Of a stretch of DNA of 42,043 nt, positions 7,472-9,165 are shown piece by piece (position 1 is the stretch's first letter; each line of letters starts with the position of its first letter). A program made the position numbers and the translations under genes. The stretch comes from Pseudanabaena mucicola FACHB-723 (lineage in GTDB: Bacteria; Cyanobacteriota; Cyanobacteriia; Pseudanabaenales; Pseudanabaenaceae). The DNA is taken from the NCBI RefSeq assembly GCF_014696385.1, contig NZ_JACJQB010000030.1:1-42043 (forward strand), in the 5' to 3' direction. Below the pieces are notes generated by a model. That model was given only the letters and a program-made list of their open reading frames with translations, had not been told where the DNA came from and did not search any database.

Positions 7472-8128
7472 TCAATTGACTAATCCCGATCGCAAAGCTA
7501 CTACTGCTGCTTGCACACGATCATCGACAGAGAGCTTATTCATGATGCCCCGTACATGGGTTTTGATCGTGTTGGGGCTAAGGTAGAGTTCTTTGGCAAT
7601 TTCAGGATTACTCTTGCCATCAACGATTAACCTTAAAACCTCTAATTCTCGTTGAGAGAGGTGCGAAGTATTTTCCGATGGAGTAGGCGGCTTGAGGTGA
7701 TCCATGACCTTACGTGCAATTTGTGGATCAAGATAGGTTGCCCCGTCCTTGGCGGCGGCAAAAGCTGCTAAGAGGCTTTCTGTCGATGTTCCTTTGACAC
7801 AATAGGCATCAGCACCACTGGATAGGGCGGCAATAATTTCCGTATCATCAGTATGGGAACTGAGCATCACAATATGAATATTAGGGGCATTAGACTTAAT
7901 TTTTTGGGTTGCTGAAATTCCATCAAGTCTTGGCAAGCCAATATCCATGACAATAATATCAGGATTTAATTCCTGAGCCATTTTTACGCCAATATAACCA
8001 TCCTCAGCGATGCCAACTACATTGATATTTGGTTGTTGCGATAGGGATTTTTCTAATCCTAGTTGCATCAGTGGTTCATCTTCTACGATGAGAACTCTTA
8101 GAGTGCTGGCTTCTGTAGATATAATCAT
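7472..8128 (-). CDS. NarL/FixJ-type response regulator
   Basis: The 218-residue two-component transcription factor has a receiver domain (about 10-125): acidic pair VEDEP, phosphoacceptor in IIVMDIGLPRLDG, then the LSSH switch threonine/serine position and the CVKG lysine. After a linker comes a LuxR-type helix-turn-helix (about 150-212) with LSQRELEVLRLIVDGKSN and LSPNTIKTHVRGIMNKL. All phosphorylation residues are present. The frame stays open to a TTG at 8209, but ATG at 8128 (MIISTEAS) puts the receiver at the usual distance from the N-terminus and is preferred. There is no partner kinase next door, so it is an orphan regulator. Its gene is divergent from the polynucleotide-kinase-like gene. 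Confidence 0.88.
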   Translation of the reverse strand: MIISTEASTLRVLIVEDEPLMQLGLEKSLSQQPNINVVGIAEDGYIGVKMAQELNPDIIVMDIGLPRLDGISATQKIKSNAPNIHIVMLSSHTDDTEIIAALSSGADAYCVKGTSTESLLAAFAAAKDGATYLDPQIARKVMDHLKPPTPSENTSHLSQRELEVLRLIVDGKSNPEIAKELYLSPNTIKTHVRGIMNKLSVDDRVQAAVVALRSGLVN

Positions 8129-8252
8129 AATTCTAAATTTTTTGGTTTTGAGGCAATTGCCATGATTATATAGCAATCTCAAATTGTTTGAGGAAGGGTA
8201 AACCTTCAAGTTTGATGATCAATGCAGGGCTGTAAAGTACACCATAAAATTC

Positions 8253-9098
8253 ATGCTGATAGTTTATTTCACAATTGGTTTACCTGCTTCGGGAAAATCC
8301 ACATGGGCAAAGAAAAGGGTCGATAAATCACCAAATGCGATTAAACGGGTTAGCCAAGGTGAAATTTCTGTCATGCTTGATAATTCCTATGCTTCTAAAC
8401 ATAATGAGCAGTTTGCCTTGGCTGTGCAAGATTTGATTATTAAAGAGTCATTAATCAATGGGAAGCATGTCATTGTAGATAATCTAAATCTTGACGCTAA
8501 ACATGAATTGAGAGTTAGAGAACTAATTCAAGATCTCGCCGTATTAGAAGTCGTAGACTTTCGAGATGTTCCCTTAGAAACTTGTATCAAACGTGATTTG
8601 CAGCGTCCTAACTCTGTCGGGGAGAAAGTAATTCGTAAACTTTATGATCAATTTATTGCTGCACCTAGAGCCACGAAACCAATATACAAACCTGAGCTGA
8701 CCGATGCCATTATTTGTGATTTGGATGGTACTCTTGCTCTGATCGTTGATCGGAGTCCCTACGATGGCTCTAGGTGTGAGGGGGATATGGTGAATGAGCC
8801 AGTGCGATCAATTTTACAAAATTCAGGAAAGAAGATTTTGTTGGTATCTGGCCGTGAAGATCAATATAAGCCGCAAACTTTGGCTTGGCTGCGTAAGCAT
8901 CAAATTGATTTTGAGGGTTTATACATGCGGCGTTCTGGAGATACACGCAAGGATAGTATTGTCAAAAGGGAAATTTATGATCAATTCATCCTTGACCAAT
9001 ACAATGTGGCTTTTGTACTAGATGATCGCGATCAGGTTGTGAGAGTTTGGCGCGATCTGGGTTTGACTTGCTTACAGGTTGAATATGGTGATTTTTAA
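8253..9098 (+). CDS. T4-type polynucleotide kinase-phosphatase (RNA/DNA end healing)
   Basis: The 281-residue two-domain enzyme is laid out like phage T4 Pnkp. The N-terminal kinase has P-loop GLPASGKST (9-17) and a lid region RDLQRPNSVG (114-123) with the expected arginine. The C-terminal HAD-type phosphatase has DLDGT (156-160) with D156 and D158 as probable nucleophile and acid, VSGRED (198-203), GDTRKD (229-234), and LDDRDQVVRVWR (256-267). It ends EYGDF, close to the VASGDF ending I remember for T4. The predicted role is to phosphorylate 5'-OH ends and remove 3' or 2',3'-cyclic phosphates so that broken RNA or DNA can be sealed. No RNA ligase is adjacent. ATG at 8253 gives the P-loop at the normal position. 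The family assignment is strong; the biological substrate is inferred. Confidence 0.85.
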   Translation: MLIVYFTIGLPASGKSTWAKKRVDKSPNAIKRVSQGEISVMLDNSYASKHNEQFALAVQDLIIKESLINGKHVIVDNLNLDAKHELRVRELIQDLAVLEVVDFRDVPLETCIKRDLQRPNSVGEKVIRKLYDQFIAAPRATKPIYKPELTDAIICDLDGTLALIVDRSPYDGSRCEGDMVNEPVRSILQNSGKKILLVSGREDQYKPQTLAWLRKHQIDFEGLYMRRSGDTRKDSIVKREIYDQFILDQYNVAFVLDDRDQVVRVWRDLGLTCLQVEYGDF

Positions 9099-9165
9099 AC
9101 CTAGAGGCTTGTGTTGCCTACATATTAGGTGGTGTAAGCTCTGTTTTTTATTATTTTAGACAAAA

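Follow-up and report, generated by a model that had tools for sequence, protein, structure and literature searches.

Polynucleotide kinase-phosphatase (Pnkp) and the RNA ligase Rnl1 of phage T4 are a textbook example of phage counter-defence and serve as laboratory reagents. A gene for a protein of the T4 Pnkp type lies at positions 8253 to 9098 of a 42,043-nucleotide stretch of the cyanobacterium Pseudanabaena mucicola FACHB-723 (contig NZ_JACJQB010000030.1), referred to here as the window. In the comparisons below the genome containing the window is labelled G000, and the compared genomes carry labels of the same kind (G016, G020, G028 and so on). The features of the locus are as follows.

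7472–8128, minus strand: LuxR-type response regulator (‘c3’), the divergent neighbour common to the Rnl1 or Rnl1-Pnkp locus of relatives
8129–8252: intergenic stretch of 124 bases; in relatives with an operon, an Rnl1-family ligase occupies the space between these flanks
8253–9098, plus strand: T4-type polynucleotide kinase-phosphatase gene (Pnkp/PseT-like), 281 amino acids, assigned from sequence, profile and structure matches
8253–8672, plus strand: N-terminal P-loop 5′-kinase domain (residues 1–140; AAA_33 over residues 5–130), active site partly lost, with changes at 12 of the 61 positions that are otherwise invariant
8277–8303, plus strand: P-loop GLPASGKST (residues 9–17), intact
8358–8360, plus strand: Gly36 at the position of T4 Asp35, from alignment to T4
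8367–8369, plus strand: Ser39 at the position of T4 Arg38, from alignment to T4
8703–9095, plus strand: HAD phosphatase domain (HAD_PNKP), every compared catalytic residue intact, none of 49 invariant positions changed
9106–9140, plus strand: terminator-like hairpin directly 3′ of pnkp, a weak call (1 found against 0.9 expected by chance)

The pnkp gene is an open reading frame of 281 codons with an ATG start and a TAA stop, and its product is the single Pnkp match in the genome. Near-full-length matches link the protein to two solved enzymes, Capnocytophaga Pnkp1 (CgPnkp1; E 9.1e-41) and T4 Pnkp (E 3.7e-32), and profile matches link it to HAD_PNKP (3.4e-48), AAA_33 (2.8e-14) and the phage family phrog_505 (3.4e-79). 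Given these values for the solved structures and phrog_505, and the orthologues in 25 of 26 Pseudanabaena genomes (the exception, G031, is 76% complete), the identity of the gene is not due to chance. Second, partial pnkp fragments on short contigs of G018, G015 and G030 perhaps reflect strain mixture or contamination. An AlphaFold2 model of the protein has a mean predicted local distance difference test score of 95.0 and a predicted template modelling score of 0.63. The initial annotation, made from the letters of the sequence, had described a kinase and a HAD phosphatase in the T4 order and suggested structure prediction against T4 Pnkp. Sequence, Pfam and structure matches all bear out this architecture, a full-length fusion of an N-terminal P-loop kinase to a C-terminal HAD_PNKP domain, and a Foldseek search with the model returned T4 Pnkp (1ltq) first (E 1.2e-24, template modelling score 0.73 by query length) and 4xrp second.

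The window protein shares with T4 Pnkp (PseT; PDB 1ltq, 2ia5) its domain order, fold, P-loop, compared phosphatase residues and C-terminal GDF. It differs in the kinase active site, where Gly and Ser replace Asp35 and Arg38, residues that we take from the T4 structure-function literature to be catalytic. In the 84 viral homologues examined, Asp35 is present in 83 and Arg38 in 81. The window kinase retains the P-loop and the equivalents of Arg122 and Arg126, and the phosphatase retains D156-x-D158, DTRKD, DDR-x-QVV-x-x-WR and GDF, with all of the DxD, Ser/Arg, Lys and DD residues of the T4-type enzyme. The earlier statement that the catalytic positions are preserved thus stands for the P-loop and the phosphatase motifs and fails at Asp35 and Arg38, two positions absent from its list. 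Because of these two replacements the protein is filed as a degenerate-kinase relative rather than as a full T4-type Pnkp. A frameshift in the altered stretch is ruled out; each codon aligns with a single counterpart in the genes of relatives, which makes the kinase changes substitutions.

Both kinase residues are kept in 21 of the 24 full-length copies of the genus. At the Asp35/Arg38 positions the degenerate copies have Gly/Ser (the window), Asn/Gly (G020) and Asp/Gly (G016). A fourth kinase-degenerate copy, in the draft genome G028 (82% complete), is a phosphatase-only reading frame of 152 amino acids, beginning close to where the kinase domain ends. The compared phosphatase residues are kept in all 25 copies of the genus, including these four. 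The G028 gene (locus L112, 7991–8449) appears to be a natural phosphatase-only Pnkp starting near the domain linker, and it stands beside the same LuxR-type response regulator as the window pnkp, in the same arrangement.

The initial annotation had remarked that no ligase lies beside pnkp and had proposed a genome-wide search for one. The neighbourhood agrees with the remark, and the search found in G000 no match to the T4 Rnl1 family (PF09511), to RtcB (PF01139) or to PF09414 (RNA_ligase), the last a profile not shown to detect Rnl of the Pnkp1-Rnl-Hen1 type; Hen1 was not searched. Within the genus, Rnl1 is present in 18 of 26 genomes and RtcB in 16 of 26; the RtcB of G032 is split in two and contains an in-frame stop. 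The ligase of G029 matches T4 Rnl1 in a PDB search (2.9e-17) and phrog_562 (5.5e-68), and a KxDG motif occurs in all eight genus Rnl1 copies examined. In eight of the 18 Rnl1-bearing genomes the ligase gene immediately precedes pnkp in the same orientation, with 30–93 bases between the two. Since many relatives keep Rnl1, and since it adjoins pnkp in these eight, the family looks like a healing-and-sealing pair.

The two genes share a locus with a third. The same LuxR-type response regulator is the divergent neighbour of Rnl1 in 17 of these 18 genomes; in the remaining one (G013; L031 is very probably its contig and was counted once) the contig breaks off past the ligase, and the regulator is at the edge of a different contig. 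In the window this regulator stands immediately beside pnkp, and roughly the first 60 bases upstream of the regulator align with those of the operon genomes. The window therefore has the divergent-regulator locus of the Rnl1-Pnkp cassette, and its genome is without Rnl1. A tblastn search of the window for an Rnl1 remnant gave chance-level pieces (best E 0.15), and none of the seven listed falls within 8129–8252. The regulator itself was detected in all but one of the 26 genus genomes. It adjoins no ligase in G021 and G031, which keep the regulator with its c4–c5 neighbours, nor in G009, G016 and G020, where its surroundings are different; G016 and G020 also lack Rnl1 and RtcB. In eight genus genomes (L090, L092, L093, L104, L106–L109) pnkp is beside an apparent alanyl-tRNA synthetase gene, named by eye, and seven of these eight keep Rnl1 at the regulator; pnkp moves often in the genus.

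In a class sample of 388 genomes the phosphatase family was matched in 46 (45 over cut-off) and Rnl1 in 36 (35 over cut-off). Among the 362 genomes outside the genus, Pnkp is over cut-off in 20, Rnl1 is found in 18 (one below cut-off) and both occur in 10 (Fisher p 7e-10, a value inflated by relatedness of the genomes; G175, with Pnkp below cut-off, is uncounted and G093, with Rnl1 below cut-off, is counted). The two genes are adjacent in all ten, with Rnl1 first in nine, and G255 is an eleventh case in which the end of the ligase gene is at a contig edge. When the 45 carriers are divided by ligase, with G255 counted as a carrier of Rnl1 despite its contig-cut gene and lack of a PF09511 match, the kinase site is lost or absent in 8/16 without Rnl1 versus 1/29 with it (p 0.0004, again inflated by relatedness; several genomes scored as Rnl1-less are incomplete, such as G028 at 82% and G329 at 69%). 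Asp35 is kept in all 29 copies counted as having Rnl1. A strict rule that loss of the ligase entails loss of the kinase is rejected, since 8 of the 16 ligase-less carriers keep Asp35 and Arg38. Phosphatase-only HAD_PNKP genes occur in genus g32 (L084 5591–6100, L085 5833–6291 and L088, in G061, G088 and G075); that of G061 lies downstream of a petD-like gene, named by eye, and the G075 match is in two pieces with two key Arg positions changed. In G040, G090, G254, G312 and G355 the Rnl1-family matches lie inside open reading frames of 683–792 amino acids, possibly ligase fusions.

These counts bear on the proposal that the window protein still heals both ends in full, with Glu37 or some other residue standing in for Asp35, and that sealing falls to a ligase that escaped recognition, giving tRNA repair as in T4. 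The proposal would account for the retained P-loop and Arg122 and Arg126 equivalents, for a kinase domain that is still under purifying selection and for the G335 copy, which is without Arg38 and sits beside Rnl1. It has to contend with the presence of Asp35 in 83/84 viral and 29/29 ligase-associated cyanobacterial copies and with the absence from G000 of any Rnl1, PF09414 or RtcB match, and is quite unlikely. The G335 copy (L087) forms a clade with viral L198, L212 and L216 in which Arg38 is Val or Ser and Asp35 is kept. Arg38 may accordingly be dispensable in some Pnkp proteins, the G335 copy being next to Rnl1.

Codon and domain comparisons of 24 of the 25 genus copies (G028 was left out for its shortened reading frame) place most of the change in one domain. 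Across the 21 intact copies the kinase, at 0.920 identity, is better conserved than the phosphatase, at 0.876, and this order is reversed in the degenerate copies, with kinase/phosphatase values of 0.716/0.801 for G000, 0.708/0.782 for G016 and 0.765/0.789 for G020. Measured against the outgroup G116, the window phosphatase (0.62) is at the mean of the intact copies (0.626), whereas the window kinase (0.53) is below theirs (0.645). With invariant positions defined over 24 intact copies (the 21 of the genus plus G116, G344 and G244), the 12/61 changed in the window kinase compare with 0/49 in its phosphatase (Fisher p 0.0005), and G016 is similar (11/61 versus 0/49, p 0.001).

A codon model, run with a custom script on the 24 full-length genes with branch lengths shared by both domains, gives the same picture, although absolute omegas are rough because the window branch is saturated. 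Kinase omega rises from a background of 0.034 to 0.093 on the window branch (p 0.010) and to 0.185 on G016/G020 (p 3e-13); phosphatase omega is 0.053 in the background and 0.056 on the window branch (p 0.89). A fold change common to both domains is rejected, with p 0.0018 on the window branch and p 1.3e-5 on G016/G020. By these estimates the window kinase appears relaxed without being free of constraint, and the relaxation appears concentrated in that domain. Decay of pnkp to a pseudogene with no selected function, following loss of the ligase, would explain the missing ligase, the lost kinase residues and the raised kinase omega. The reading frame is intact, however, the phosphatase omega equals background with omega 1 rejected on the window branch (p 1e-12), its invariant positions are untouched and its compared catalytic residues survive in all four kinase-degenerate copies of the genus, so that such decay is very unlikely.

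The family is common in phages: 2456 of 50,697 phage records match the window Pnkp. A scan of viral contigs with a single-protein query gave none, and an alignment query gave at least 432 confirmed loci, the best 80 of which were analysed with near-identical copies included. Rnl1 is near pnkp in 38 of these best 80, and in 13 of them the ligase match ends, by its coordinates, within ~50 bases of the pnkp match. A plasmid origin was rejected, as none of the 36 matching plasmid records covers 80% of the query.

A tree of phage and cyanobacterial copies, as the initial annotation had suggested, was built quickly from 111 Pnkp sequences with Shimodaira–Hasegawa-like approximate likelihood ratio support only; it holds 10 of the 24 full-length genus copies and, of the 20 copies over cut-off from other cyanobacteria, the 17 that are neither phosphatase-only nor broken. 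The cyanobacterial copies are nested among viral ones in several separate places, and well-supported branches force at least three changes. An equally quick Rnl1 tree of 52 rows (8 of 18 genus copies, 32 of 38 viral matches) has the same main cyanobacterial groups, with Pseudanabaena joined by G116 and then by G344/G244. The trees also share the groups of G152/G284/G338 with G350 and G114, of G243 with G255, and of G335 with phages L198 and L216. Phages L151/L152 and L210 are placed differently in the two trees, which suggests that phage Rnl1 and Pnkp partners have sometimes been exchanged. Because cyanobacterial copies are scattered among phage copies, repeated capture is suggested, and the simplest account is that the Rnl1-Pnkp pair was transferred repeatedly from phages to cyanobacterial hosts, the direction being read from the nesting.

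The polarity of the ligase difference rests on the same comparison, as other cyanobacterial genera, and phages too, have Rnl1 immediately before pnkp. The converse would be that the ligase was never lost: a Pnkp alone beside the regulator would be ancestral, and Rnl1 would have been inserted in other lineages, with a present function that may be the same as if the ligase had been lost. In favour of this history are the 10 genus genomes, out of 18 that have both genes, in which Rnl1 and pnkp lie apart, and the weak support for the deep branching order of the genus. The recurrence of the Rnl1-pnkp order outside the genus and the position of Pseudanabaena near G116, G344 and G244 in both trees argue against it and make it improbable.

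In our assessment the window gene is probably the half that survives of an Rnl1-Pnkp cassette of phage origin, a cassette widespread in Pseudanabaena, in which the ligase would here have been lost, the 5′-kinase would have decayed and the 3′-phosphatase would have been kept. Part of the earlier idea of a domesticated RNA-repair gene survives here, namely an origin in phage-type end healing, to which the nested copies and the relatives with Rnl1 point. Full repair of cleaved tRNA by the window copy is not supported, because three ligase families are absent and two kinase residues are lost.

Several observations weigh against this reconstruction. In the genus, pnkp is away from Rnl1 in 10 of the 18 Rnl1-bearing genomes, and beyond the regulator the window is without the c4–c5 genes of the operon relatives, as are G009, G016 and G020. 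Loss of kinase activity is less certain in that Glu37, beside the lost Asp, could in principle act as a base. Absence of the ligase and loss of the kinase residues do not always go together, as G008, G009, G021 and five genomes outside the genus are without Rnl1 yet retain Asp35/Arg38, and Arg38 is missing from G335, with its adjoining Rnl1, and from three phages. G016 keeps Asp35. In G020 the invariant-position test is not significant (8/61 in the kinase versus 2/49 in the phosphatase, p 0.18), and the phosphatase is slightly relaxed on the G016/G020 branches (omega 0.053 to 0.092, p 0.036). On the window branch itself, which carries ~4.8 neutral substitutions per codon, kinase omega is still well under 1, with neutrality rejected at p 2e-11. 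Either the kinase domain is held by some remaining constraint (on its fold, on a dimer, or on the binding of nucleotide or RNA), or its decay came late.

In genomes with the intact pair the division of labour would be that of T4, with Pnkp healing both ends of a cut RNA and Rnl1 sealing them. The window lineage would have lost the Rnl1 gene that separated the response regulator from pnkp, and with Asp35 changed to Gly and Arg38 to Ser the kinase site would have decayed, so that 5′ phosphorylation is probably gone. The part left under normal constraint would be the HAD 3′-phosphatase, and only 3′-end processing is predicted to remain. By the mechanism of the T4 family, the first Asp of D156-x-D158 would attack a 3′-phosphate or act on a 2′,3′-cyclic phosphate, forming an acyl-phosphate and releasing a 3′-OH end. 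RNA cut by a toxin or RNase, or a blocked DNA break, would then become a substrate for 3′ exonucleases or polymerases rather than being sealed.

Whether that substrate is RNA or DNA separates the surviving-half account from one further explanation, in which the protein is a DNA 3′-end repair phosphatase for 3′-phosphates at oxidative or apurinic/apyrimidinic-lyase breaks and the kinase is no longer needed. T4-type HAD phosphatases act on DNA 3′-phosphates, and loss of ligase and kinase with the phosphatase kept would fit DNA and RNA roles equally. Exonuclease III is a usual bacterial enzyme for DNA 3′-phosphate ends. A gene of its family (TIGR00633) exceeds the cut-off in every genus genome but G016, 25 of 26 in all with G000 among them, so Pnkp is not the sole candidate for such ends and DNA repair by default is rejected. 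This makes a DNA role less needed, and the history of the cassette is tied to an RNA ligase family; the DNA explanation is unlikely, if less so than the others considered above.

Two other associations were looked for. The initial annotation had suggested a check for a PrrC/RloC-type nuclease; AAA_13 had no match in G000 (28 of 30 first-look candidates scored), and a PrrC/RloC partner was rejected as the reason for the gene there. In the genus AAA_13 has some match in 8 of 26 genomes and is over cut-off in two (G012, G027). Among PADLOC defence models, no family was matched by Pnkp and two Rnl1 proteins.

The surviving-half account has parallels in G016 and G020, with a degenerate kinase and neither Rnl1 nor RtcB, and in G028, with its phosphatase-only gene beside the same regulator. 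Because the trees group G016 with G020 and set G000 apart, the evidence favours at least two separate kinase point losses, although a single origin is compatible with the well-supported branches, the deep nodes being weak. Ser34, Gln35 and Leu130 are common to G000 and G016, which speaks against full independence of the losses. Tentatively, and with the odds somewhat against so broad a statement, T4-type Pnkp may have a ligase-independent 3′-phosphatase job to which cyanobacteria that lose Rnl1 repeatedly strip the enzyme, by point loss in the window lineage and G016/G020 and by kinase deletion in G028. The phosphatase-only genes of g32 would perhaps be a further case.

Known systems provide close counterparts to the intact pair. 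PMC4411300 treats T4 Pnkp/Rnl1, Pnkp-Hen1 and Pnkp1-Rnl-Hen1 as established systems, PMC2610378 gives the T4 pathway as healing of cut RNA ends by Pnkp and sealing by Rnl1, and a jumbo phage survey (PMC7824862) describes Rnl1 and kinase-HAD healing enzymes. The T4 pair for healing and sealing tRNA (Rnl1 is RnlA, PDB 2c5u) has its counterpart in the 18 genus genomes with Rnl1, eight of them with the ligase directly upstream of pnkp; in T4 the genes are near each other but not adjacent. The window gene stands apart in lying in a cyanobacterial genome without a match to three ligase families.

By sequence the closest solved relative is Capnocytophaga Pnkp1, a bacterial and not a phage protein, and its system resembles the Pseudanabaena cassette in that a T4-like Pnkp and a ligase share an operon (PMC4411300). 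The Pseudanabaena ligase differs from that of the Pnkp1-Rnl system, as it matches T4 Rnl1 and no 4xrp Rnl chain at E up to 1. Phosphatase-only relatives (phage proteins of phrog_415, whose matches cover the phosphatase part alone; G061 and G088 of genus g32) resemble the predicted state of the window protein in having a phosphatase without a working kinase, whereas the window protein is full-length and its kinase domain is still constrained.

A 2016 survey of RNA repair systems reportedly may list a cyanobacterial Rnl1-Pnkp pair. A literature search found no paper on the Rnl1-Pnkp pair in Pseudanabaena or in cyanobacterial chromosomes; the class of Rnl1-Pnkp systems is known, and the Pseudanabaena case with a degenerate kinase and no ligase appears to be new.

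In this cyanobacterial genus Pnkp is nearly fixed and Rnl1, its partner, occurs in 18 of 26 genomes; cyanobacteria apparently took the pair from phages more than once. Reduction toward the phosphatase in several genomes where the ligase is gone would separate the three activities by evolution, a natural experiment that raises the question of how 3′-end healing benefits a bacterium when nothing seals the ends.
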